Positions 644 to 13,817 of a stretch of DNA of 43,998 nucleotides are shown here, piece after piece (position 1 is the first letter of the stretch; the number at the start of each line of letters is the position of its first letter). The stretch comes from Campylobacterota bacterium (lineage in GTDB: Bacteria > Campylobacterota > Campylobacteria > Campylobacterales > Nitratiruptoraceae). The position numbers and the translations under genes are program-made. The stretch covers positions 1-43,998 of the forward strand of contig WGAT01000040.1 of assembly GCA_015494715.1 (NCBI GenBank), read 5' to 3'. The notes beneath the pieces were generated by a model, which made no database searches, had not been told where the DNA came from, and saw nothing but the letters and a program-made list of their open reading frames with translations.

Positions 644-2317
644 ATGGGAAGAGTCGCTGTCATATTGATCCTTTTTTTCTCTTTTGCCTCGGCTAAGTGG
701 TGTATATACCATGCAATGCAAAAGAGGATATACCAAAATGAAGATAAAACTTTTTACTCCAATTTTCCCCATGGAACTATTATAAAAAGGCGGGGGTGGT
801 ACTGGTTTATCTCCGGTCCGTATGATACGAAAGACAAAACTCTCCAAATGCTTCGTTTGGCTAAGAAATTACATGCTGACGCCTATATGAAACCTTGCCG
901 TGGCCTTTGGCACAATACCAAAAAACTCCAAAGTAAATATAAAAAAGAGCAAACAAGGCAAAAAAAAAGCGCTCAAAAACCGCATACTGCCATCATATCC
1001 TCTTCCCCTATGCCCCAAAAATTCTCATTGACCCAGCAAATCTCGAAACAAGAGGATCAAAAAAAAGAAGAGGAGAAAAAAGAGCTCTACTACTCTTTGA
1101 GTTTTGAGGAGTTTTTGCATCGGCTCTTAAATTATGAGTATGGCGCCAAAAATATCGACTATCGACGAAAATTGGAAGAATTAGAGGCGGTGTTGGAGCA
1201 CAATATATACGATTGGGATATTTTTGCCAATGTGACGGCCGGATACAGCAAATTTATCGATTACGATCTTGCGACTAACAAGGAACTCACCCTCAATGGA
1301 GGAGTAGGGATCCAAAAACGGCTTTTTGATAAGGGATATTTGCTCAAAGAGCGTATTGAAGCGCTAAAAAAGCGTTTGGCCAAGCTGCGCTCTATTCGAG
1401 ATAAAGATAAACTAGCTTTATATGCGTTACAAATTTATATGGATGCGTATGCCAATCAGCAAATCAAAGATATTTATCAAAGACTCTACTTCAATCAAAA
1501 GGCTTTTTTTAGCCTCATTTCGGAGCGGTTTAAAGTAGGACTAGCTGGTAAAGTAGACTATATTGACGCCAAAAACGATTTACTCTCTATCAAACGGGCC
1601 TTTTTGGATAAAATCTATGATACGATGTATAGCGATTTTGTGATACGCAACGCTATCGGATTAGATGTGGGAAAGCCTGTTCGGCTGCAAGAGTTTGGTT
1701 TGATGGCAAGAGAGGGAAGTTTAGAGTCACTCTATCAAAAAGCCTTGGAAAAAAATCCAGATATAACCATCCAACGCTACTTGTTTGAGCTGCAAAAAGA
1801 GTATCTCCAACAAGAAAAAAACGCCCACTACCCCATACTTGAACTCTCTACAGGAGTTTCATACGAATATAAAAAAGATTTTGGCACTACTCCTCATAAA
1901 AGTGCAAAGGGACTCAATTATAATCTAGGATTAAACATGAAAATCCCTCTGTATGGCCCGGAGGTCTCTAGCGAAGCTTTACAAAAGGAGAAGATCAAGA
2001 CGCTTGTGCAAAAAAATAGTCTGCTACAAAGCATCAAAGAAAAGGCTCGCCAAATACATCGATATTACAATGAGATAGAGCGTATAGACCGCACCCTCGA
2101 AATTATACAAGAGCAACAAGCCCTTATGCAAGAGAAGCTTAAACTCGTCAAAGAGCGTTATAAAAGCGGTCTTGCTAGCTATAGGCAATACTCCGATGCC
2201 TTGGCAGAATTACTCCGTCTAAGCGAAGAGCGCTATATGCTCCAAGCGACCCGCGTGCGGGATGAGGGCATACTTGCAATCCTTCAAGGAAAGCATCTTT
2301 TTTATGGCGAGGATTAA
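644..2317 (+). CDS. TolC-family outer-membrane channel with N-terminal SPOR-like domain
   Basis: 557 residues. Signal peptide at residues 1-17 (cleavage after ASA). Residues about 18-85 resemble a SPOR domain (KWCIYHAMQ ... GWYWFISGPYDTKDKTLQMLRLAKKL), the fold that binds denuded peptidoglycan. A charged linker rich in Lys and Gln follows to about 145. Residues about 150-557 are TolC-like: long helices with two repeated halves, and short strands such as FANVTAGYSKF and LNYNLGLNMKIPLYG. TolC proteins form trimeric channels across the outer membrane and periplasm. As first gene of an operon with pelF and pelG, it is the likely export channel. The Shine-Dalgarno is weak (GACCGG). The TolC part is firm; the SPOR label is moderate. 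It may partner the adaptor encoded at 9884-10876. Confidence 0.82.
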   Translation: MGRVAVILILFFSFASAKWCIYHAMQKRIYQNEDKTFYSNFPHGTIIKRRGWYWFISGPYDTKDKTLQMLRLAKKLHADAYMKPCRGLWHNTKKLQSKYKKEQTRQKKSAQKPHTAIISSSPMPQKFSLTQQISKQEDQKKEEEKKELYYSLSFEEFLHRLLNYEYGAKNIDYRRKLEELEAVLEHNIYDWDIFANVTAGYSKFIDYDLATNKELTLNGGVGIQKRLFDKGYLLKERIEALKKRLAKLRSIRDKDKLALYALQIYMDAYANQQIKDIYQRLYFNQKAFFSLISERFKVGLAGKVDYIDAKNDLLSIKRAFLDKIYDTMYSDFVIRNAIGLDVGKPVRLQEFGLMAREGSLESLYQKALEKNPDITIQRYLFELQKEYLQQEKNAHYPILELSTGVSYEYKKDFGTTPHKSAKGLNYNLGLNMKIPLYGPEVSSEALQKEKIKTLVQKNSLLQSIKEKARQIHRYYNEIERIDRTLEIIQEQQALMQEKLKLVKERYKSGLASYRQYSDALAELLRLSEERYMLQATRVRDEGILAILQGKHLFYGED

Positions 2318-3797
2318 AGTAGTCTGGACGGGGGAGGGTACCTATCCTTATGCCACGGGTGGCGTGAGCACTTGGGCCGATTTGCTTATCAAAGAGCTCA
2401 AAAACATCGATTTTGTTTTATTGCCTATTATGATGCATCCGTATATGCAGACCAAGTATGAACTGCCTCCTAATGTGGTCGATACCATCAATGTTCCCTT
2501 ATGGGGGACGGAGGAGCCCACCGAATATATCCGCAATATCCCCTTTTCCCAAATCTACCAAGCCAAGATCAACACCCAAAAATCAAAAGATATCAGAAGA
2601 TTTGAGCCTATTTTACTAAAAGTACTCGATCATATCTATCGGGTGGATGAGGATATGGAGGGGCTTGGGGATGCGCTGTTTGAATTTTATGAGTACTTTT
2701 TGGAGTATGACTATTATGAGGTTTTCCGTAGCGAAGAGGTATGGGATATCTATAAAAGCTATGTTTTGCACTACTATTACGGCCAAGAAAATCCCCCAAG
2801 CCTTTTTGATATGATCGAGGGGCTTCGCTATCTCTTTCGCTTCTTCATCTCTTTACTGCCCCAGCTGCCCCAAGCGCCGATTTATCACTCCTCCGCCGCC
2901 GCCTTTTGCGGTTTGCCCTGTATTATCGCCAAAAAGCGCTACAAAAGCCGTTATTTGCTTACCGAGCATGGGATTTACATCAGAGAGCAGTATCTCTTTG
3001 CTTCCAGACAACAGCTGCCTTTGCGTACCAAAGAGTTTTTACTCGGGCTTATTACCACTGTCTCCAAACTCAACTACTATTTTGCCGACGTGATCTCTCC
3101 CGTGTGCAACTACAACAAACGCTGGGAGGTGCGCTGGGGCGTGCCCGAGAGCAAGATCCACACCATCTACAACGGCATCGACGTGCTCAAATTTCGCCGA
3201 TATGAAGTGGAGCGAGATCCAAGACCTACGGTGGTCATGGTGGCTAGACTTGATCCGCTCAAAGATATCGAGACCTATATCCGCTGTGCCGCCATCGTTG
3301 CCAAAAAAGTGCCCGATGTACTTTTTAAACTCTATGGTCCGGTAGTCAATGAAGAGTATTACAATAAGTGCCAAGATTTGGTACAAGAACTCAAGATAGA
3401 GAATAATTTTTCCTTTATGGGTCCCACTTCCAATCCGGCCTATGCCTATAACGAAGCCGATGTGGTGATGCTCACCAGCATATCTGAAGCCTTTCCCTTT
3501 GCCGTCATCGAGGCGATGGCTTGCGAGAAAGTGGTCGTATCCAGCGACGTGGGCGGAACCAAAGAGGTATTGGAGGGATATGGTTTTATCGTCAAGCCAA
3601 AAGATTACGAGGCTTTCTCCAAGCATGTAATCTATCTTTTGCAAAATCCACAAATCGCTCAAGAGATGGGTATAAAAGCCAGACGGGTCATCGTGGAGGG
3701 ATTTACAACCGAGGATATGGTCAATAACTATTGGCAGATGTATAAAAGACTCTATGATGAGTATGAAGCCCAATATGAGGGGATTGGATATGAGTGA
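2304..3797 (+). CDS. pelF: PelF-type glycosyltransferase (GT4)
   Basis: 497 residues from the ATG at 2304 (MARIKVVWTGEGTYPY). An in-frame ATG at 2262 would add 14 residues inside the TolC gene and is less likely. The N-terminus carries the PelF hallmark TYPYATGGVSTW. The C-terminal Rossmann half has YNGIDVLKF, VARLDPLKDIETYI and the GT4 E-x7-E motif EAFPFAVIE. PelF is the cytosolic polymerase of the Pel polysaccharide, using UDP-HexNAc sugars and working with PelG at the inner membrane. The length matches PelF of Pseudomonas (about 507). It overlaps the TolC stop by 14 bases and the pelG start by 8, which indicates translational coupling. Confidence 0.92.
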   Translation: MARIKVVWTGEGTYPYATGGVSTWADLLIKELKNIDFVLLPIMMHPYMQTKYELPPNVVDTINVPLWGTEEPTEYIRNIPFSQIYQAKINTQKSKDIRRFEPILLKVLDHIYRVDEDMEGLGDALFEFYEYFLEYDYYEVFRSEEVWDIYKSYVLHYYYGQENPPSLFDMIEGLRYLFRFFISLLPQLPQAPIYHSSAAAFCGLPCIIAKKRYKSRYLLTEHGIYIREQYLFASRQQLPLRTKEFLLGLITTVSKLNYYFADVISPVCNYNKRWEVRWGVPESKIHTIYNGIDVLKFRRYEVERDPRPTVVMVARLDPLKDIETYIRCAAIVAKKVPDVLFKLYGPVVNEEYYNKCQDLVQELKIENNFSFMGPTSNPAYAYNEADVVMLTSISEAFPFAVIEAMACEKVVVSSDVGGTKEVLEGYGFIVKPKDYEAFSKHVIYLLQNPQIAQEMGIKARRVIVEGFTTEDMVNNYWQMYKRLYDEYEAQYEGIGYE

Positions 3798-5343
3798 TCC
3801 TTTGGCCAAACTCTATCAAGAGATCACAAAAGATAGAGGAGAGCCCCTTGATATATGGGAGATAGCCGCTCTTTTGGAGGTGTACGGCATTCGGGACGTG
3901 GATGCCAAAGAGTATGGGTATGGGGATGTTTTTGAGCTGGCAAAGGCTTTGTGGCGATACAAAGATATCAAAAGCTATCCCAAGCGATCCCTCGCCGCCC
4001 AGCAGTCGCCTCCTCCTTTCAAGGTTCGGGTACGAAGAAATTTTATTAAAGGGTTGGCTTTTGCCATGCCGATGCTACTGCAAAGCGTCGCCACCATATT
4101 TTTTGGATTTGCCTTATGGTCTAATATCCATATGGACGTGACTGAAGCGACCATTATTGCTTTGAGCACCTTTTTGGCTATGATTCTCACTGGCGGGCCG
4201 GCACAGGTAATTGGCCGAAAAGGGCTGTACTATTTGAAGATGAACGAATACATTTTAGCCGCTAAAATCATAGAGCTGCTTTTTAGCATAAGTATGCTCA
4301 AAATTATCTTTATATCTTTGCTTTTTGTGCTGTTTAATTGGATATTTGGGGTTTTGGATTGGCATCTTTTTGTTATTTTTATTGTAATGTTTTTTTTATT
4401 GAGCACCCTGTTCCTCTCCGTCTCCATCTATTACGTTTTTGAGGAATACGAGAAGATTTTGTACTTTTTTTTCTATGGACTTGGATGGGTCTTTTTGCTC
4501 CACTATCTTTTAGGACTTGAGTATCTCCAAGCCCAATTTGTAGCTCTTGCCATTTTGGATGCGAGTATTATCTATTTCGCTTACAAAAAGCTTCGAGATC
4601 TTCGCGACAAAACCCAATCCGAGGGTGAGATCCTCCCTCGTCCTTCTATGCTTGTGTATACTCTTATCCCTTTTTTCGTCTACGGCTTTTTATACTTTTT
4701 ATTTTTGACGATCGATCGTTTGATCGCTTGGAACGCCAATTCGACCAATCAGGGATTTTTTTTATGGTTTGACGCCAGATACGAGGTGGGCTCCGATTTG
4801 GCTTTGTTGGTCTTTGTGATTTTGATGGGTGTAGTGGAGGTGGTGGTATACGAGTTTTTATATAAGCTCAACGACAAAGTCTTTGGATATTCCGTATTTG
4901 AGTTTGAGCGATTTAATCGCTCCTTTTTAAAATTTTACAAGAAAGTCAACACTATTTTTATTATCGTCACGCTTTTGTCGATAATAGGGGTGTATGCTTT
5001 GGTTTTGTTGCTCTTGATGTTTGTGGAAGAAAGAGCGCTCCCTTTTGGGGGGTATGGGATCTTTGTCTTTTTTGTAGGTTCTTTGGCTTTTGCTTTTTTG
5101 GCTAACGGCTTGATGAACGCACTGATACTTTTTTCTTTTTCGAGACAAAAAATAGTGGTCAAGGGAGCATTTTTTGCGGTATTGATCAATTTTGTATTGG
5201 GCATGGTACTTAGCCGTACTCTAGAGCCCTATTTTGCCGTGTTGGGACTTTTAGCCGGAAGCGTGGTCTTTTGGTATGTGACTTTTCGTTTTTTGATCAA
5301 AATGTTTGGCAAGCTCGATTATTACTACTATTCGGCATATTAA
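3790..5343 (+). CDS. pelG: PelG-type polytopic membrane transporter
   Basis: 517 residues from the ATG at 3790, which overlaps the pelF stop (ATGAGTGA) and is preceded by GAGGGGATTGG. The ATG at 3754 lies deeper in pelF and is less likely. A soluble N-terminal stretch of about 75 residues precedes roughly 12 membrane segments of MOP-exporter type. Motifs typical of PelG are visible, such as TGGPAQVIGRKGLY, LTIDRLIAW, FDARYEVGSDLALL and the C-terminal LDYYYYSAY. PelG is the inner-membrane translocation partner of PelF. The soluble N-terminal extension is longer than I expect for PelG and could stand in for contacts normally made by PelD/PelE; that is inference. Confidence 0.9.
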   Translation: MSDPLAKLYQEITKDRGEPLDIWEIAALLEVYGIRDVDAKEYGYGDVFELAKALWRYKDIKSYPKRSLAAQQSPPPFKVRVRRNFIKGLAFAMPMLLQSVATIFFGFALWSNIHMDVTEATIIALSTFLAMILTGGPAQVIGRKGLYYLKMNEYILAAKIIELLFSISMLKIIFISLLFVLFNWIFGVLDWHLFVIFIVMFFLLSTLFLSVSIYYVFEEYEKILYFFFYGLGWVFLLHYLLGLEYLQAQFVALAILDASIIYFAYKKLRDLRDKTQSEGEILPRPSMLVYTLIPFFVYGFLYFLFLTIDRLIAWNANSTNQGFFLWFDARYEVGSDLALLVFVILMGVVEVVVYEFLYKLNDKVFGYSVFEFERFNRSFLKFYKKVNTIFIIVTLLSIIGVYALVLLLLMFVEERALPFGGYGIFVFFVGSLAFAFLANGLMNALILFSFSRQKIVVKGAFFAVLINFVLGMVLSRTLEPYFAVLGLLAGSVVFWYVTFRFLIKMFGKLDYYYYSAY

Positions 5344-5352
5344 GGAGAGTGG

Positions 5353-6255
5353 ATGTATAGATTTTTATTGCCTTTTTTATTTTTTGCTTTAATGCTAGCC
5401 GGATGCGCTTCACATAATAAGGATCTGGACAAGCAGATAGAACAGGCCCAAAATATTCACATCATAACTACGACTCTTGCATCTCCCGTAATAGAAAAAC
5501 GGAGTAAAAATATATTCCAAGCATTCCCTTTTATTTTAGAAGAGTATGATGTACGAGGAAAATTTAGCGACGATTTTTACAATAGGCTCCATCTAGTCTA
5601 TACCGCACGAGCCATCGATAAAATCGATTTTTGGAAATTGCAAAAAGAGCCAAAAAGTCTTGATTTTATCTATGTCTCGCCAGTGTGGATACGGGATTTT
5701 AAAAAAGTCTCAAAAGATCTTTTTGAGGATTTATGCTACTCGTACAATATCTCCAAACAAGAGCAAAAGATATTAAAAAAGTGGGTGGCTCAAGGGGGGG
5801 TGCTGTGGTTAGAGAGCGGAACCTACTCTACCAAGTACGATATCTTCAACAAACACGGAGAGATCGCCACGGCAACGATAGACCGCCTTATACGCCAAAG
5901 CCTCCAAGGCGTTCGTTTTTGGAGCTATCCCATCCACACGCATCTTTTTGCGAGTAAAAACCTCGATCCGATCAACTATGTGCCTACCAGCCAAACCTTT
6001 GTGGTCGATAGCAACAAATCGGTTTTTAAAGATATCAAACGCCTCAAAGTGGACATACGAAACTATCTTCAAAATAATTTCGTTATTTTAAGCAAGCCTT
6101 TAGTGGTGGATAAAAAAGGCGAACCTTTGGTAACAATGGTACAATACGGCAAAGGGTATGTGGTCAGCTTGCTGCCTTTTGAGTATAAAGATGTCTATTA
6201 TGATGGAGAGCTACTACGATGGGAGCTTCTTTTTTATCTGTACGATCGTCACTGA
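5353..6255 (+). CDS. lipoprotein with class I amidotransferase-like fold
   Basis: 300 residues. Lipoprotein signal peptide with lipobox LAGC (Cys18), so the protein is membrane-anchored and faces the periplasm. The Shine-Dalgarno AAGGAGAG sits just before the ATG, 9 bases after pelG. The body reads like the DUF4159/ThuA-type glutamine-amidotransferase fold: DFIYVSPVWIRDF, then ILKKWVAQGGVLWLESG, then a C-terminal VTMVQYGKGYVVSLLPFEY. No catalytic Cys is visible in the expected place, so enzymatic activity is doubtful. I do not recognise a named family. Its place between pelG and a large membrane protein suggests a periplasmic accessory to polysaccharide synthesis or export. Confidence 0.65.
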   Translation: MYRFLLPFLFFALMLAGCASHNKDLDKQIEQAQNIHIITTTLASPVIEKRSKNIFQAFPFILEEYDVRGKFSDDFYNRLHLVYTARAIDKIDFWKLQKEPKSLDFIYVSPVWIRDFKKVSKDLFEDLCYSYNISKQEQKILKKWVAQGGVLWLESGTYSTKYDIFNKHGEIATATIDRLIRQSLQGVRFWSYPIHTHLFASKNLDPINYVPTSQTFVVDSNKSVFKDIKRLKVDIRNYLQNNFVILSKPLVVDKKGEPLVTMVQYGKGYVVSLLPFEYKDVYYDGELLRWELLFYLYDRH

Positions 6256-6267
6256 CAAGGCCGCCCC

Positions 6268-8457
6268 TTGTCTGAGGGATTTATCGATTTTTCTGTCGTC
6301 GATGCTATCGTATGGATAAATATCACGAGCTCAATACTCCTTTTTGTCGTCGCTTATCTGTACTTTGTTGCGCTTCCTCGCTGGCTTTTTCCCCAAAGGT
6401 GGACTGGAGGTGGTTTAGAAAATCTTATCTCCAACATTTTGTATATGGTAGCTTTTACGGAGCTTGCGGTCCCTTTGATGGTCTTTATGAAAATATTTTC
6501 CCTCTTTTCTTATGCGGCTCTTATTCTCTTGACAAAATTTGCTTTTTTGAGATGGTACTACAAAATCTCCGTCAAGTCCTATTTAGAAGAGATCAAGAAT
6601 CGCTTACTAATCGCCCTGTTTGACTTTTTAGATCATGCCCAAGAGATGCTTCAAAGAGCCTATAAAAGAGCCAAAAGGGGTTTTGCGTCCTTTTTTAAAG
6701 AGCTTACCCCCTACCTATTTTTTAAAAAAGCGCTCATTTTTATTACTTTTGCCTATCTTCTTTACCTCATCGGAGAGCGCTGTTTTTTATCTTTGGCCAA
6801 TCCTTTATCCGATACGAGTCAGTTTTTTGAGTGGGTAGCCAGACTCAACGACAATATTCTTTATGCCGACAACAAAACGGCTGGAGCCGACTTTTACGGC
6901 CTTTCGGTCTTTGTCTTTATCCTCAATACCCTCACCCATATCGATACGGTGGTGCTTTTCAATATTTACCCGCTTCTTTTGATCTTTTTTCTTTTTTTGG
7001 GCGTCTATTTCGTGCTCAAACGCTTTACCCTCTCCTCTTTCCTCGCTCTTTCTACGCTAATAATCTATGGGGTATTGTTAGCCTCTCCGTGGGGCGAGTA
7101 TATCGCCACGCCCATTAGCGTTACCAGCAGACCGGAAATATTGCAGTTTCTTTTTTTCAAGTTTTATACCATTCCCCAGCACTACTTTCTACACCCAGAG
7201 CTTCATTTGGAAAATGTCTCCATGACCCCTTATTTTCGCTACTTTAGCGGGATGGCGTATGAATTTTCCTCCACTCTTTTTTTGATCAACCTTTTTTACC
7301 TTATCAAGGCTTTGGATACGGGACGCAGCAGATATCTGATCAACTATACCCTCTCATTGATGCTGGTATTTATCTTTCACGGAGGGGGGGCCATCTCTTT
7401 GATCGTGCCAAGCATCCTTATCGCCTTGCACGCTTTTGTAAGTTTGAAGCTCTCTTGGAGCCTCTTGAAGCGGGGGATGCTCGCCATCCTTATCGCCGCT
7501 ATTTTTGGCAACGGCTGGATGCTCTCCGTCCTCAAATACGGCATCCCTCAAGACTTCGGTGCCGCCGCTCCCTTTTTGGATCGGCTCTTTGGTACCAAGC
7601 AGGCGATGAGCGAGATAATATCTGCGGGTATCGAAGAGGTCACCATCTCCCATCTGACGTGGCTGCACCTCTTTTTGGCGGCCTCGGCTCTGTTTTTTTT
7701 CCTCTTGGCTCGCTTTGGGAAAAAGGGGTTTTATTTTTCGAGCTTTTTACTCATTCCCCTTGGCTATTTTGTAGTTTATTTTAGTGAAAATCTTGGGCTT
7801 CCCAAGCTTGTCCACCCCTCAAGGGGCGTGGAGTATCTCTTTTTGTCCATCTCCATAGTGATCGCTTGCTATATCAGGTTTTTTGTCTGGGTACCACTTA
7901 AGATAGTTTTTAAGCAAAAAGCAAGAGCCATATTTATGGCATTTGTCTATTTGGAGCTTTTTTTGTTGGCCAATTTCGTACCCCAGTATAAAGAGAGCGA
8001 CAGATTTAAGCTCTTCATCAACGGAGTCCAATATACCGACATCCCCTACTTTTTGTACCAAATCATCAAATCCAACCGGCCCCTTACTTGGACGGTGGTC
8101 TCTTATGTGCAAGAGTATTCCAAGGTCTTAGGCAAGGGGTATATGATCAATGTCAACGAATTTTTGATAAAATACGACCCCACGGCCAGATATTTGACCA
8201 TTCCGACTCCAAAAGTGTATATCTTTGTCGAGGATATCCCAAATAACTATCGTGGAAAGGATGAATGGTATTATAGATGGCGGCCCGATATCGAAGCTAG
8301 GCTCAAAGAGTGGATAGCGATATACAGCGCACTGCACCCGAACAAAATAAAGCTTTTTGCTAAAAGCAACTTAGTAAGTGTTTACGAAATAGACAATAGC
8401 GATTATATGCGATGGCTCCAAAGGCAAAAGAATGTTTCACAATCCCCTTCTTTTTGA
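6268..8457 (+). CDS. large polytopic membrane protein, GT-C glycosyltransferase-like
   Basis: 729 residues. The only sensible start is TTG at 6268, spaced 7 bases after ACAAGG; the next in-frame Met is near residue 59. I count about 12-14 hydrophobic segments, with soluble stretches near residues 100-150 and a C-terminal soluble domain from about 590. The layout, with a loop after an early membrane helix (FFEWVARLND ... AGADFYGLSVF) and repeated aromatic helices, resembles GT-C enzymes that use polyprenyl-phosphate sugars, but I see no diagnostic DxD or ExD motif. It overlaps the next gene by 26 bases. It could alternatively be a transporter or a PelE-like scaffold. Gene certain, function uncertain. 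Confidence 0.6.
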   Translation: MSEGFIDFSVVDAIVWINITSSILLFVVAYLYFVALPRWLFPQRWTGGGLENLISNILYMVAFTELAVPLMVFMKIFSLFSYAALILLTKFAFLRWYYKISVKSYLEEIKNRLLIALFDFLDHAQEMLQRAYKRAKRGFASFFKELTPYLFFKKALIFITFAYLLYLIGERCFLSLANPLSDTSQFFEWVARLNDNILYADNKTAGADFYGLSVFVFILNTLTHIDTVVLFNIYPLLLIFFLFLGVYFVLKRFTLSSFLALSTLIIYGVLLASPWGEYIATPISVTSRPEILQFLFFKFYTIPQHYFLHPELHLENVSMTPYFRYFSGMAYEFSSTLFLINLFYLIKALDTGRSRYLINYTLSLMLVFIFHGGGAISLIVPSILIALHAFVSLKLSWSLLKRGMLAILIAAIFGNGWMLSVLKYGIPQDFGAAAPFLDRLFGTKQAMSEIISAGIEEVTISHLTWLHLFLAASALFFFLLARFGKKGFYFSSFLLIPLGYFVVYFSENLGLPKLVHPSRGVEYLFLSISIVIACYIRFFVWVPLKIVFKQKARAIFMAFVYLELFLLANFVPQYKESDRFKLFINGVQYTDIPYFLYQIIKSNRPLTWTVVSYVQEYSKVLGKGYMINVNEFLIKYDPTARYLTIPTPKVYIFVEDIPNNYRGKDEWYYRWRPDIEARLKEWIAIYSALHPNKIKLFAKSNLVSVYEIDNSDYMRWLQRQKNVSQSPSF

Positions 8458-9883
8458 AAAGATTCAAGATATCGTCTACGGCGTAGCTATAAACTTGTGG
8501 TGGGTTTTCGCTCTGTTGGCGCTTCTGTTTTTTTGGTTGACGCTTAAACTCTTTCGCTCCAAAGTCCAAAGCGAGGCGAAATTTGAAAGACAAAACAGAC
8601 TTTTGAAAGATTTTGCCAAGCTAAGCAAAACGCAGGATATGGAAAATTTCATTTTAGAATATGTGCAGAGTTTAGGAGCCGAGGGGGCGGCTTTGTATCT
8701 TCGTAGGGGAGATATCTTTATAATGCAAGCAAGAGCGCCTCAGACGATCTCGTGGGATACGAGGCTTTATCCAAAAGATATCGCGCAACAAGAAAAAAAG
8801 GGCATCTATGACGTTTTTTACCTTCTCTCGCCTCAAGAAGAGGTGGTCTTGGTGATCTATACCAAAAAAAGTGTAGATTTGGAGGAGTACGATGGTTTTT
8901 TGGAGATGATGTTGGCCCTCTACGCCCAGAGCCTCTCCCTTGCAAAAGGGCGGCATATGGCAAAAGTGTCCGATGCCTCCAAGTCCTTGCTCTCAAACGT
9001 AATGAAGCTACAATATGGGACGGAGACATTTTTGAAATTTATCGTCTCTTTACTTTTTAAAGCCGAAGGAGCTACGGGCGTCATTTTGAAAAATAGGGAA
9101 AAACCGGGCAAACAGGTTGTTTTCAAATCTCCACAAAAAGGAAAATACAGCAAAGTTTTTTATATACGAAATACCCCCTATATCCTAGAGCTTTACACAA
9201 GAGTCCCTTTGCCAAAGGAGAAGATCGCCGAGCTTGGGGCTTTTTTGGATCTTGCGGGAAGCTATTTTGAAAATATCAAAGCCAATAGCAAGATGGTGCT
9301 TAACTATATCAACTTTTTAAGACTCTCCAACCGGGCTTTGGAACTGCAAAGCCGATACTTTGCCAACCATTCCGAAAAAGTACGAATCGTCAGCGTAGAG
9401 ATCGCCAAAAATCTTTTTTTGGACGAGAAAGTCATAGATACCATCGCTTTGGGAGCGGAGCTGCACGATATTGGCATGGTGGGTAAGATAGAGCAGTTTT
9501 TAGACAGCGATAAGATTAAAGACAAAGATTTAGACCTTATTCGCTACCATCCAGTTATCGGAAGCGTCATCGTAGAGCCTATAGACAAGGTCTATCCGAT
9601 AGCTCCCATTATTCGATACCACCACGAAAGATATGACGGAAGCGGGTATCCTTACGGGTTGAGCGGCGATGAGATTCCGTTAGAAGCCCAAATCGTCGCT
9701 TTAGCCGAGTACTATGTGGGCGTCACCAGTCCAAGAGCGTACCGAAAAGCCAAAAGCCACGAAGAGGCCATTCAGGATATTCAAAATCAAAAAGATAAAC
9801 TCGTAGCCGCTTCAGTCATAGACGCTTTTTTGGAATCACACGAAAAGACGGCTAAGAAGTTGGAGCTGCTTGATATTAAGTGA
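8432..9883 (+). CDS. membrane-anchored GAF/HD-GYP protein with altered active site
   Basis: 483 residues. One membrane helix at about 20-41. A GAF-like segment lies at about 70-165 (GAEGAALYLRRGDIFIMQA), a second at about 195-285 (AEGATGVILKNREK), and an HD-GYP domain at about 295-475. HD-GYP enzymes hydrolyse cyclic di-GMP using a bi- or trinuclear metal site. Ligand positions seen: His313, His345-Asp346, His373, His397-His398, and GYP at 405-407. Two key positions differ from consensus: HDxGK reads HDIGM (Met349), and the late Asp of the VAD motif is Glu426 (ALAEYY). Activity may be reduced or lost. As last gene of the pel-like operon it probably links polymer synthesis to cyclic di-GMP, either as phosphodiesterase or as receptor. 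Confidence 0.85.
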   Translation: MFHNPLLFEKIQDIVYGVAINLWWVFALLALLFFWLTLKLFRSKVQSEAKFERQNRLLKDFAKLSKTQDMENFILEYVQSLGAEGAALYLRRGDIFIMQARAPQTISWDTRLYPKDIAQQEKKGIYDVFYLLSPQEEVVLVIYTKKSVDLEEYDGFLEMMLALYAQSLSLAKGRHMAKVSDASKSLLSNVMKLQYGTETFLKFIVSLLFKAEGATGVILKNREKPGKQVVFKSPQKGKYSKVFYIRNTPYILELYTRVPLPKEKIAELGAFLDLAGSYFENIKANSKMVLNYINFLRLSNRALELQSRYFANHSEKVRIVSVEIAKNLFLDEKVIDTIALGAELHDIGMVGKIEQFLDSDKIKDKDLDLIRYHPVIGSVIVEPIDKVYPIAPIIRYHHERYDGSGYPYGLSGDEIPLEAQIVALAEYYVGVTSPRAYRKAKSHEEAIQDIQNQKDKLVAASVIDAFLESHEKTAKKLELLDIK

Positions 9884-10876
9884 TCACTCGTTTTTTGATT
9901 TGACTTCGTAGACCGTTTTGTTTGGATTTTCTATGAAGTGCTCTTTTATGAATTTTTGCTCGTTTTTTTGTAAAAACACCGTTACGAGGGCTTTTGTCCC
10001 TTCTTGTAAGATATAGTTTTTATTGGGTATCTCCACCTCGGCGGTCATTCGGCCAAAATCTGGATCGACCACCATCACCACCCGTGAGATTTTTGCCTCC
10101 ACATGGTATGGAGGGGTGGTGAGAAAATCGACCTCGACCTTTTTGCCTTTTTTGATAAAAGGCAAAAGTCCCGGAGCGATTCCGGCTTTGACGATCACCT
10201 TGTCCAGATTGACGACGGTACCAAGTTTGCTCCCCTTGGTGACATAATCTCCGGGCTGGGTTTTTACATCGGCTATAAATCCGGATATATCGCTGCGCAC
10301 TTGACTTAAATAGAGCAAATGGCGTAGTTTCTTGAGCTCCGCGGCGGTATCGTTGATACGCTCTTTGAGGGAGTAGAGTTTTTCTTTTTTGATCTCTTCG
10401 TCTGCGTATTTGCTCTTTAAAGAGGAGGCGTAGGCATTTTTTGCGTTGTGCAACTCTTGCAAATCGCCATACCCTTTAGCTTTGAGTCGAGAGAGCTGCT
10501 CAAGATTGAGTCGGGCCATATTGACAAGGGCTAGATCCATCATATGCTGTTTGCTATGCCGGATAAAATGGGCGAACTCCTTAAGATATTGGAGCTCTTT
10601 TTGGATTCTTTGGATATCGTATTGGGTGATGGTAGTCTCGAAGCGAACTAACAGATCTCCTTTTTTGACTTTATCTCCCGAATGAATGAGCACCTCTTTG
10701 ACCCGTCCATCCATAGTGGCCAAGATATCCTCTTTTTGCGACGGGTAGACCTCTCCTTCGAGTCGGATGGTAATGCCTTCTTTGCTTTTTTTGATCTCTT
10801 TTTCTTCGGGAGTCTTGGCACATCCTCCCATAAAGAGAATCGCCGCTGCCATCCCCAGCAACGCCAATCGTCTCAT
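9884..10876 (-). CDS. lipoprotein membrane-fusion (HlyD/RND-type) adaptor
   Basis: 330 residues. Signal peptide with lipobox MGGC (Cys19). The order is typical of periplasmic adaptors: a first lipoyl half (LEGEVYPSQKEDILATMDGRVKEV), a helical hairpin with a coiled coil at about 90-195, a second lipoyl half (DISGFIADVKTQPGDYVTKGS), then a barrel domain with KGKKVEVDF. Adaptors join an inner-membrane pump to a TolC channel. No RND or ABC pump gene is adjacent; the nearest TolC is at the far end of the convergent operon (644-2317). The start overlaps the deacetylase stop (ATGA). The stop abuts that of the HD-GYP gene with no spacer. Confidence 0.88.
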   Translation of the reverse strand: MRRLALLGMAAAILFMGGCAKTPEEKEIKKSKEGITIRLEGEVYPSQKEDILATMDGRVKEVLIHSGDKVKKGDLLVRFETTITQYDIQRIQKELQYLKEFAHFIRHSKQHMMDLALVNMARLNLEQLSRLKAKGYGDLQELHNAKNAYASSLKSKYADEEIKKEKLYSLKERINDTAAELKKLRHLLYLSQVRSDISGFIADVKTQPGDYVTKGSKLGTVVNLDKVIVKAGIAPGLLPFIKKGKKVEVDFLTTPPYHVEAKISRVVMVVDPDFGRMTAEVEIPNKNYILQEGTKALVTVFLQKNEQKFIKEHFIENPNKTVYEVKSKNE

Positions 10877-11685
10877 ACTTTTCCTTTTGCGTACTCTTGT
10901 AAAATCAACTCAAATCGCTTTATACTCTCCCCCGTATTCGCAAAGGTGAGCACATAGGCCTTGTCCAATCGTACTTGGGAGAGAAATCTGCTCAACAGGT
11001 TTGGCAAAAGCTCATACGGATGTGTATAAATTATCGGTTTGATTTTTTGATTTGTTACGCAGCGAAAGAGTCTTTTTGTAATAAAAAGAGGCAGCATTCG
11101 CATATAAAAGCCACCGCTAAAGGGGATGAAGCACTTGGGGATAGGGATTTCGGTGATCTCTCCCGAGGGCGTGGCGATGACAAAGGGATGTTTTTTATCG
11201 ATGGTGTTGCCATACATATAGGTTTTAAAAGGAAAGTAGGAGGAGGAGTAGACAAAACCCATCTCTACGAGCGCTTCGTAGTAGCGCTTCTCAAATGGCA
11301 GGCTCCAGCTAGGACTTCGATACCCAAGGACTGGTGCCTCTATGATATCTTCGAGTATCTTTTTGGCCAAGGCGGTCTCTTTTTTCCATACTTCAAAAGG
11401 CTTTTGATAGACTAATTGATGATCGTACCCGTGCGAGGCTATCTCGTGGCCTTTTTGGTGCAGATTTTGAACGGCGTGGGGGAAACGGCGAGCAAAACTG
11501 CCAAGTACGAAAGCGGTCGATCGAAAGCCATAGCGCAAAGTCAGCTCATCCCATTTATCCAAAATGGCTGGGTAGTCGATGGCGAGCTCTTTTTTGGGCG
11601 TGATGCCAAAATTGGCGTCTTCTACCCTCTCCACATCGATCGTCAGCCAGATGGGATGTTGCAAATAGGTATCAGGCAGATACAT
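10873..11685 (-). CDS. polysaccharide deacetylase (NodB-type, XrtA-locus style)
   Basis: 270 residues from the ATG at 11685, chosen because GGAGGAGAG lies directly upstream; the longer frame to 11715 lacks this. NodB motifs are seen as LTIDVE (catalytic/metal Asp), SHGYDH (two metal His), YRSPSW (motif 3), and THPYEL (late His). The DVE rather than DDG form and the general order match the deacetylases of PEP-CTERM/exosortase exopolysaccharide loci. There is no signal peptide, so it probably acts in the cytosol or on a lipid-linked sugar. It overlaps the upstream flippase-like gene by 14 bases and the adaptor by 4. Confidence 0.85.
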   Translation of the reverse strand: MYLPDTYLQHPIWLTIDVERVEDANFGITPKKELAIDYPAILDKWDELTLRYGFRSTAFVLGSFARRFPHAVQNLHQKGHEIASHGYDHQLVYQKPFEVWKKETALAKKILEDIIEAPVLGYRSPSWSLPFEKRYYEALVEMGFVYSSSYFPFKTYMYGNTIDKKHPFVIATPSGEITEIPIPKCFIPFSGGFYMRMLPLFITKRLFRCVTNQKIKPIIYTHPYELLPNLLSRFLSQVRLDKAYVLTFANTGESIKRFELILQEYAKGKV

Positions 11686-12607
11686 CTCTCCTCCATAAAA
11701 AATCTTTGGTGGCAAAAAGGTACAGACTATAAAGCGTAGCGGGCAGAATGTAGAGTATTTGCAGCACCAAAGAGGCGCTTAACGCTTCTTCTTTTGGAAT
11801 GCCGTACCACCCAAGCGTTAGGATAAAAGCGGCTTGGAAAGTACAGATACCGCCGGGAGTCAAAGGAATGGCCGAAACGGCAAAAGCCAAGGTAGAGGCG
11901 ACGAATATCTGCCAAAGCTTAAGATCAAAATCGGTGGCTGTGAGGAAGAAGACGAAATTATTCAAATAATAGCTCCCCCAGACCGCCAGCGTCAAAAAAA
12001 AGAGAGTCTCCAGCCGCTTGGGCGTGAGGTTGGAGCGTATGATTTTATAGATTTTATACGCTAAGGCCCGTATTTTTGGGAAAGGGAGTAAAAAAAGGAG
12101 TTTACGGAAAAAAGAGGGGGAGTAAAACAGATAACCAAAAGAGAAAAAGAGGCCAAAGAGCAAAAGGGCTACGACAAGACCTCCTTGGCTTGGGAGTATA
12201 AAAAGGGCCGAAAAGAGGATCATCGCCGCCAAAACCAGTACGTCAAAAAGACGCTCTATAAAAAAATAGGAGGTGGAGTGAGCGATATGATGGCCTTCTT
12301 TTTGTTTCATATAGTAGATCTTTGAAAGGTCCCCAAGTTTTGCCGGAGCGAAGATATTAAGAAAAAAAGCGAGCATATTGGCCTCGAGGCTTGATATGAA
12401 AGAGTAGCGAAAATGGCTTAGATAATACCATCGCCACGAAATGACAAGATCGCTAAAAAAGACGGCAACAAAACTCAAAACCACTCCCCAAGGATTAAGA
12501 TGCTTGAGGCTTTGCAGAAGAAGCTCTAGATCGATATCCTTGAATATCCAGTAGACCAAAGCGGTCAGCAAAAGAAGCTTGAGGATTTTTATCGCCGATT
12601 TTTTCAT
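11672..12607 (-). CDS. flippase-like / lysylphosphatidylglycerol-synthase-TM family membrane protein
   Basis: 311 residues with about 8 membrane segments. The family signature is present: FAPAKLGDLSKIYYM followed by FFIERLFDVLVL, and a late PLTPGGICTFQAAF. This UPF0104/AglD-like family includes the membrane part of MprF and proteins next to glycosyltransferases; members are proposed to flip or move lipid-linked substrates. No soluble aminoacyl-transferase domain is fused, so it is not MprF itself. It starts at an ATGA overlap with the FemAB-like gene and is followed by the deacetylase, giving a membrane step beside a sugar-modifying step. Confidence 0.85.
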   Translation of the reverse strand: MKKSAIKILKLLLLTALVYWIFKDIDLELLLQSLKHLNPWGVVLSFVAVFFSDLVISWRWYYLSHFRYSFISSLEANMLAFFLNIFAPAKLGDLSKIYYMKQKEGHHIAHSTSYFFIERLFDVLVLAAMILFSALFILPSQGGLVVALLLFGLFFSFGYLFYSPSFFRKLLFLLPFPKIRALAYKIYKIIRSNLTPKRLETLFFLTLAVWGSYYLNNFVFFLTATDFDLKLWQIFVASTLAFAVSAIPLTPGGICTFQAAFILTLGWYGIPKEEALSASLVLQILYILPATLYSLYLFATKDFLWRRDVSA

Positions 12608-13494
12608 AAGTCCACGAGATACTTAGTAAGTTTTGGGCCTATGAAATCGGTAAAGATCAGAGGCAATTTACTCCATATTTTAGAAGCCAAAGCGTAGCTG
12701 GCGTAGATATCTTTTTGGGTGTCGGTGAGGATGTCGATCTTGACGGGGGAGGCACCAAAACGGGTTTTGAAAAAGTAGGTTCCTCCGTTGTAGGGGGAGC
12801 GGCCAAAATCGATGGTATGGATATCGGGCTTGGAGATGAGGTAGCGAATGAGCTCGTGATAGAGGAAATAGCCCGTACTCCCTTCGTTTTTGTGACGATA
12901 AACCCCTCCATACAAAAGGGTGGCTATGCCGTTGTCATAAAAAAAGAGCACGCCACCAACGGGCTCCTCTTTTTCGTTAAAGAGTATGAAGATATCCAGA
13001 TCTTCGCCAAAATTTTTGGCCAAATTGTAAAAAAAGGCGATGGGCATCAAAGGAGTGCCGTGGTGTTTGTAGATATCTCGCAAAATATCGTAAAAAGCTT
13101 CGATAAAGGAGTGGGCTCTTTGGAGGTGGTATCTTTGGAGCCGTTTTTCCTTATTGACGCTCCGTTTGGCCAGTTTCTTGTACCCTTTGGTGATCTCATC
13201 CAAACTCTTTCCTTCGATATCGAGGCGTAAAGTGACCGTATCGTGATCTTTGAAATCTTTGTACTCGAAGTTGAGGGTGCGGATTTGGTAATGATTATCC
13301 TTGGGCAATTCCAAAAGCTCGCGGGCCTCTTGGCTCGTTTTATCGGTGTAGTTGAGCAAAGGCAGATAGCTTAGATACTTTGTGCCAAAGCTTGGTTGGA
13401 CGATAAAGTCCATATACTCTTCAAATCCAAAGGTCTCAACGAGGCTTTTTTTCCACAATTGGATCAGTCGTGGCGTGTAACATACCCGTTTCAT
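12604..13494 (-). CDS. FemAB-like acyltransferase (GNAT fold)
   Basis: 296 residues from the ATG at 13494, which overlaps the DUF2304 stop by 4 bases; a GTG two codons upstream is possible. The double-GNAT plan of FemAB/XrtA-associated proteins is seen: an early half with FGFEEYMDFIVQPSFGTKYL, a charged linker (KRSVNKEKRLQRY), and a late half with PVGGVLFFYDNGIATLLYGG and TIDFGRSPYNGGTYFFKTRFGA. Proteins of this type transfer an acyl or aminoacyl group, and those in exopolysaccharide loci are thought to decorate the polymer. Donor and acceptor are unknown here. Confidence 0.82.
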   Translation of the reverse strand: MKRVCYTPRLIQLWKKSLVETFGFEEYMDFIVQPSFGTKYLSYLPLLNYTDKTSQEARELLELPKDNHYQIRTLNFEYKDFKDHDTVTLRLDIEGKSLDEITKGYKKLAKRSVNKEKRLQRYHLQRAHSFIEAFYDILRDIYKHHGTPLMPIAFFYNLAKNFGEDLDIFILFNEKEEPVGGVLFFYDNGIATLLYGGVYRHKNEGSTGYFLYHELIRYLISKPDIHTIDFGRSPYNGGTYFFKTRFGASPVKIDILTDTQKDIYASYALASKIWSKLPLIFTDFIGPKLTKYLVDL

Positions 13495-13817
13495 CGACAC
13501 TCTTTGGCTTCAATGATGGCGATTTCTCGTACGATTTTCGTAATGGCACGCTCGTCCATTTTGACTTTGGCGTATAGCACGGCGACGATCAAAGAGAGTA
13601 TGGCAATGGCTAAGTAAATAATCAGATCCACCCCTCGTCCGATCCCAAAAAAATGGGCTACCTTATCGGCTACCTTTGGGAACAAGATCAAATAGGCCAA
13701 AAAGATATAAAAAAAGATCACGCTCATGCGCTGATAGGTACGAAACCTGCTAGAAAAAGCGACAAGCAAAAAGACGACGCTGAGCACCACTATTAAAAAG
13801 ATTTTGATAAAGATCAT
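13491..13817 (-). CDS. DUF2304 small membrane protein
   Basis: 108 residues with three hydrophobic segments (near 3-20, 32-48 and 68-88) and a charged, helical C-terminus (KVKMDERAITKIVREIAII). Small DUF2304 proteins are regularly found directly beside DPM1-like family 2 glycosyltransferases, as here, and are presumed membrane partners of them. It overlaps both neighbours by 4 bases (ATGA). Biochemical function is unknown. Confidence 0.8.
   Translation of the reverse strand: MIFIKIFLIVVLSVVFLLVAFSSRFRTYQRMSVIFFYIFLAYLILFPKVADKVAHFFGIGRGVDLIIYLAIAILSLIVAVLYAKVKMDERAITKIVREIAIIEAKECR

Follow-up and report, generated by a model that had tools for sequence, protein, structure and literature searches.

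The last gene of a six-gene operon in a 43,998-nt stretch of DNA from a deep-sea vent bacterium related to Nitratiruptor (Campylobacterota, Nitratiruptoraceae; assembly GCA_015494715.1, contig WGAT01000040.1, positions 1 to 43,998, all of which is referred to here as the window) encodes an HD-GYP protein with altered catalytic positions. Among the explanations weighed here, the best supported is that this protein is a membrane-anchored receptor for cyclic di-GMP (c-di-GMP) in a divergent Pel-like exopolysaccharide system, a proposal based on sequence that we regard as about evenly poised between right and wrong. The anatomy of the protein, the fixation of its substitutions, its conserved operon position, and purifying selection on its gene are established. 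A receptor is favored because the places of K225, D308, and D183 of the solved phosphodiesterase PmGH are lost in 16/16 orthologs; because the GYP tyrosine and a guanine-contacting arginine are kept in all 16, as is a second basic ligand (Arg or Lys); because the orthologs form one clade, the ratio of nonsynonymous to synonymous substitution (dN/dS) between genomes G000 and G004 is low (0.030), and the gene follows that of a 729-residue membrane protein (m729) in 15/15 loci with enough contig to show it; and because the genomes of the genus show no match to PelD, while the Desulfovibrio vulgaris protein DvhD offers a precedent. The gene and its motifs lie at the following positions:

8432..9883, plus strand: TM-GAF-GAF-HD-GYP protein (TM, transmembrane) with altered catalytic positions, the proposed c-di-GMP receptor; ATG start, 483 aa
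9464..9478, plus strand: HDIGM motif, residues 345-349, with Met349 at the PmGH K225 place
9644..9652, plus strand: GYP motif, residues 405-407
9701..9718, plus strand: LAEYYV, residues 424-429, with Glu426 at the PmGH D305 place and Val429 at that of D308

Membership of the HD-GYP superfamily is indicated by a Pfam HD_5 match of 93.7 bits (cut-off 27.2). Among NCBIfam families, the HD-GYP part matched NF053512 (NosR family response regulator c-di-GMP phosphodiesterase) best, at 117.1 bits, far below the cut-off of 400 bits for that family, and no receiver domain was matched in Pfam. A single hydrophobic segment spans residues 13-43, and the basic residues that come after it suggest that the C-terminal part of the protein is cytoplasmic. 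Neither GAF-like segment was matched in the Pfam scan. In an AlphaFold2 model (mean predicted local distance difference test score, pLDDT, 74.6; predicted template modeling score, pTM, 0.46), two alpha/beta domains with a GAF-like order of elements lie at residues ~46-176 and 197-277 and are followed by a helical HD domain. Structure comparison matched the first of these domains to solved GAF domains (Z 11-12) and the HD-GYP part to PA4781, DvhD, and PmGH (Z 21-22). Together, the hydrophobic segment, the model, and the GAF matches bear out the original prediction of a membrane-anchored protein with two GAF-like segments and an altered HD-GYP domain. PmGH of Persephonella marina (PDB 4mcw/4mdz/4me4), which also combines GAF and HD-GYP domains, is the best match among solved structures in sequence as well as in structure; its structural alignment spans the GAF-like and HD-GYP domains with a root-mean-square deviation of 14.7, a value so large that the relative placement of domains in the model is unreliable. 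The window protein differs from PmGH in its membrane helix, its second GAF-like domain, and its operon role. The closest named contig is from a Nitratiruptor metagenome-assembled genome, with 96% identity across the protein.

Positions were mapped onto PmGH by sequence alignment and compared between the 16 orthologs and 32 other HD-GYP domains of the same order; the latter were best matches rather than a random sample, with repeat loci of one gene left out, and were chosen by a GYP-like motif, so that degenerate HD-GYP domains may be missed among them. At the K225, D305, D308, D183, and E185 places the window protein has Met349, Glu426, Val429, Ser307, and Tyr. Met replaces K225 in 16/16 orthologs and in 0/32 other domains (29 Lys, 2 Asn, 1 gap). 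The D305 place is Glu in every ortholog and Asp in 32/32 others, and the D308 place is occupied by V, I, A, T, or S in all 16 orthologs, as against D or E in all 32 comparison domains. Ser or Asn is found at the D183 place in 16/16 orthologs, and the E185 place holds Tyr in 15 and Asn in one. Since Met349 and Glu426 occur in 16/16 orthologs and in none of the 32 other domains, these substitutions are not due to chance. The original prediction had recognized both, Met349 in HDIGM and Glu426 at the late Asp of the VAD motif (where the window protein reads LAEYY), and had asked whether they are fixed in orthologs, as they prove to be; it had overlooked Val429 and Ser307. Orthologs with canonical HDxGK and VAD motifs, which it had named as counter-evidence, number 0/16. 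It was also correct that the remaining ligands and GYP are kept: the window protein retains His313, His345/Asp346, His373, His397/His398, and the GYP motif, and the counterparts of PmGH H189, H221, D222, H250, H276, H277, Y285, and R314 are present in every ortholog. At the K317 place, where the second basic ligand lies, 12 orthologs have Arg and 4 have Lys, and Tyr406, Arg435, and Tyr437, which lie in the cleft, are invariant. PmGH and the window protein thus share the GYP tyrosine, R314, and the greater part of the metal shell of His and Asp residues; in PmGH, guanine is contacted by R314 and K317 and a phosphate by Y285, according to the PmGH study that is the source of the mutational data used here (PMC4159591). 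Residues supporting catalysis have thus changed, whereas the pocket for the ligand and the bulk of the metal shell have been retained.

In that study, alanine at D183, K225, or D308 cuts activity much as changes to metal ligands do, which indicates that residues altered in the window protein and fixed in its orthologs matter for catalysis in PmGH. Some c-di-GMP hydrolysis remains in E185A and D305A mutants, and changes to GYP, R314, and K317 have little effect on turnover (PMC4159591). Because the metal ligands are retained, the main rival explanation is a slow or 'trigger' phosphodiesterase that would bind and hydrolyze c-di-GMP with an altered di-metal site, its turnover resetting the local pool at the polysaccharide machine, which we consider rather unlikely. 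Such an enzyme would account for the six His/Asp ligands kept in 16/16 orthologs, and Glu can serve as a carboxylate ligand in place of Asp; PmGH D305A keeps part of its activity, proteins with Tyr or Phe at the E185 place form a large subfamily in which two metals are expected (PMC4159591), and trigger phosphodiesterases are a described class. It sits less well with the disappearance of both the lysine and D308, either of which is as costly in PmGH as the loss of a metal ligand (PMC4159591), with the lack of Met or of a small or aliphatic residue at these respective places in all 32 other domains, and with the nine EAL matches already present in the genome, given which c-di-GMP degradation does not need the HD-GYP protein. 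The window genome has 13 GGDEF matches, these 9 EAL matches, and 1 HD_5 match, the last being the HD-GYP protein itself. An HD_5 match was found in 7/14 genomes of the genus, in each case exactly one and at the ortholog of the window protein.

The HD-GYP gene closes a co-directional run of six genes (644-9883) with spacings of -56, -44, +9, +12, and -26 nt, in which it is preceded by the following:

644..2317, plus strand: TolC-like outer membrane protein, first operon gene (Pfam OEP)
2262..3797, plus strand: PelF-type GT4 glycosyltransferase (NCBIfam PelF NF038011, 178.4 bits, cut-off 100)
3754..5343, plus strand: divergent PelG-like exporter (Pfam PelG, ~34.3-34.4 bits, cut-off 29)
5353..6255, plus strand: 300-aa putative lipoprotein, no family above cut-off
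6268..8457, plus strand: m729, 729-aa membrane protein, GT-C-like in its model (OST/PglB, AftA)

No solved relative of the 300-aa lipoprotein was found up to E 1, and m729 had no family match in the Pfam or NCBIfam scans. The m729 model (mean pLDDT 74.9) matched a human OST complex chain (E 1.9e-5), PglB (1.9e-3), and AftA (3.5e-3), so that the predicted fold appears to resemble that of GT-C glycosyltransferases. Tandem copies of m729 are present at three loci (L035, L037, and L131), with three copies in genome G008, two in G003, and two in G100, the second of which is cut by a contig end; a possible interpretation is diversification of a membrane glycosyltransferase.

Distribution was determined across 398 genomes of the order with a profile built from the N-terminal region. 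Orthologs of the HD-GYP protein were found in 16/398 genomes, in 6/87 genera and five families; a wider search of genome contigs gave two related loci only, and comparisons stay within Campylobacterota. In a tree of 48 HD-GYP domains the 16 orthologs form one clade (support 100/100) on a stem of length 1.55. The HD-GYP gene is under purifying selection, with a dN/dS of 0.030 for the whole gene and 0.020 for the HD-GYP part between G000 and G004, other genome pairs being partly saturated at synonymous sites. PelG of the window type occurs in 20/398 genomes, 15 of which have the HD-GYP gene; in the other five (G010, G012, G013, G100, and G341) the contig breaks off within PelG or m729, and they are neither included in the 15/15 count that follows nor counter-examples. 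In all 15 loci that reach that far, the HD-GYP gene stands directly after m729 or its visible end, and no locus of the window type could be shown to be without it. Three genomes (G293, G014, and G009) have PelG on a separate contig and are linked to the HD-GYP gene through m729 only, and in the sixteenth HD-GYP genome (G088) the contig begins at the HD-GYP gene. The last place in the operon, as originally described, holds for the window; its relative G008 is an exception, carrying a further m729 copy after the HD-GYP gene.

Fixation of this kind is also compatible with a hydrolase acting on another substrate (pGpG, 3'3'-cyclic GMP-AMP, or another phosphoester) to which Met349 and Glu426 would be tuned. 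The substitutions are not drifting, the metal shell is mostly kept, the length of the stem branch points to a change of function, and a cGAMP-specific HD-GYP enzyme, V-cGAP3, is among the solved relatives. We nevertheless think this improbable: the guanine ligands for c-di-GMP are kept, and the gene has been seen only in the Pel-like operon, with no tie to another nucleotide pathway. Two further invariant patches lie away from the active site, K-x-F-x-IRNTP (residues 241-249, window 9152-9178) in the second GAF-like domain and VEP...Y (residues 381-388, window 9572-9595) in the HD domain, the latter not seen in the aligned comparison domains; both are possible partner-contact surfaces. Contacts through VEP 381-383, Tyr388, and residues 243-249 could serve a ligand-free scaffold on which PelF, PelG, and the GT-C protein are brought together and which acts through its GAF-like domains or through protein contacts. 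A pure scaffold would not need invariant Tyr406, Arg435, and Tyr437 in the cleft, and we place this explanation slightly below the preceding one, as improbable too.

The locus is Pel-like but divergent and cannot be counted as a canonical pel operon. PelG proteins of canonical Pel systems in the order score ~396-499 bits against 34.4 for that of the window, on which basis the two are clearly separate lineages. When the six operon genes were scanned against Pfam and NCBIfam, no match of the PelA (GH114-type hydrolase), PelD, or TPR type appeared, and the idea of a PelD hidden in the operon was rejected; the HD-GYP protein has no match to the PelD_GGDEF profile (PF16963), and no PelD match was obtained in any of the 14 genus genomes. 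The profile does recognize PelD where the order has canonical pel loci (controls L078 and L122), the former of which carries GH114, PelD, and TPR genes. The suggestion that the HD-GYP protein stands in place of PelD is therefore supported insofar as PelD is unmatched in 14/14 genus genomes, but not in the sense of a canonical pel locus with one part swapped. In G032, an HD-GYP gene that lies next to a canonical PelG gene (L077, 1870-3423, minus strand) was considered and rejected as an ortholog: its HDIGK and VAD motifs are intact, it is unrelated to the clade of 16, and G032 belongs to another family than the window. PelD, the c-di-GMP receptor of Pel systems (PMC7112168), resembles the window protein: it too is a membrane protein, combines a GAF domain with an altered domain of a cyclic di-GMP enzyme, and is encoded with PelF and PelG. 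It differs in that the altered domain is a degenerate GGDEF with an I-site.

A receptor built on an HD-GYP domain is not a new idea, since DvhD is already known (2026). As described in its report, DvhD binds c-di-GMP without hydrolysis and acts like LapD within a surface-attachment system, controlling a protease and an adhesin (PMC13090378). Like the window protein, DvhD (PDB 9rbz/9rc0) is a membrane-anchored HD-GYP protein with residues other than Asp at the D305 and D308 places, and in an alignment read by eye its Tyr523, Tyr621, Arg650, and Tyr652 correspond to Tyr309, Tyr406, Arg435, and Tyr437. It has dCache and PAS domains, and no kinship with the window protein was seen beyond the HD-GYP domain.

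Several observations weigh against the receptor proposal. DvhD has lost the HD and HH metal pairs, whereas window-type orthologs retain them in 16/16 cases; indeed all six His/Asp metal ligands are retained in every ortholog, with Glu replacing D305, and a pure receptor does not obviously need them. Two DvhD ligands, K582 for phosphate and E668 for the base, are unmatched, their places holding Leu367 and Lys454 as read by eye from the alignment. PmGH D305A still hydrolyzes some c-di-GMP, and because R314A and K317A hardly altered PmGH turnover, the keeping of these residues is weak evidence for binding (PMC4159591). Ser at the D183 place also occurs in 11/32 other HD-GYP domains, and the loss of D183 is therefore not diagnostic; in the AlphaFold2 model, confidence is low for the active-site loops, near residues 350 and 400.

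If the protein is a receptor, c-di-GMP would bind in the former HD-GYP active-site cleft through Tyr406, Arg435, Tyr437, and Arg438, and any bound metal may assist in holding its phosphate. Hydrolysis would be poor or nil, given the loss of the lysine, the structural Asp, and the candidate general-acid Asp. Binding would rearrange the helices that connect the HD-GYP domain with the GAF-like domains and the membrane helix; in this way, the neighboring PelF-like, PelG-like, and GT-C-like proteins would be activated. Of these steps, we infer c-di-GMP binding, the loss of catalysis, and the activation of polysaccharide synthesis.

The surroundings of the operon include a convergent set of minus-strand genes (9884-13500) for HlyD-like, polysaccharide deacetylase, LPG_synthase_TM, and FemAB/GNAT proteins. 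This set adjoins the operon in 9/9 genus genomes with the HD-GYP gene, the window included, and may modify or export its polymer. Just upstream of the operon, an open reading frame at 81-551 appears by eye to be the C-terminal portion of a TnpB-like transposon protein. An Rfam scan of the window gave no family at gathering thresholds, and thus no c-di-GMP riboswitch was seen.

It is possible, although we lean slightly against it, that a separate HD-GYP lineage was converted once into the dedicated c-di-GMP receptor of a distinct Pel-like system (TolC-like, PelF, PelG-like, lipoprotein, GT-C), taking PelD's role and using the metal site for binding rather than catalysis. Searches of the open-licence literature yielded no HD-GYP receptor in a Pel-like polysaccharide operon with the metal shell mostly kept, and no mention of the HDIGM motif or of PelD-less Pel systems. 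If the receptor proposal is true, polysaccharide synthesis in these bacteria uses an HD-GYP receptor domain instead of a GGDEF-type PelD, yet follows the same logic, with a GAF-containing membrane receptor whose gene lies next to those of PelF and PelG. The protein would then be, as far as searches of the open-licence literature show, the first HD-GYP receptor linked to exopolysaccharide synthesis, and would offer a case in which the conversion of an enzyme into a receptor, marked by a few diagnostic residues, can be put to the test. It would also call for caution in equating every HD-GYP gene with a phosphodiesterase, as the only HD-GYP protein of the window genome may not be one.

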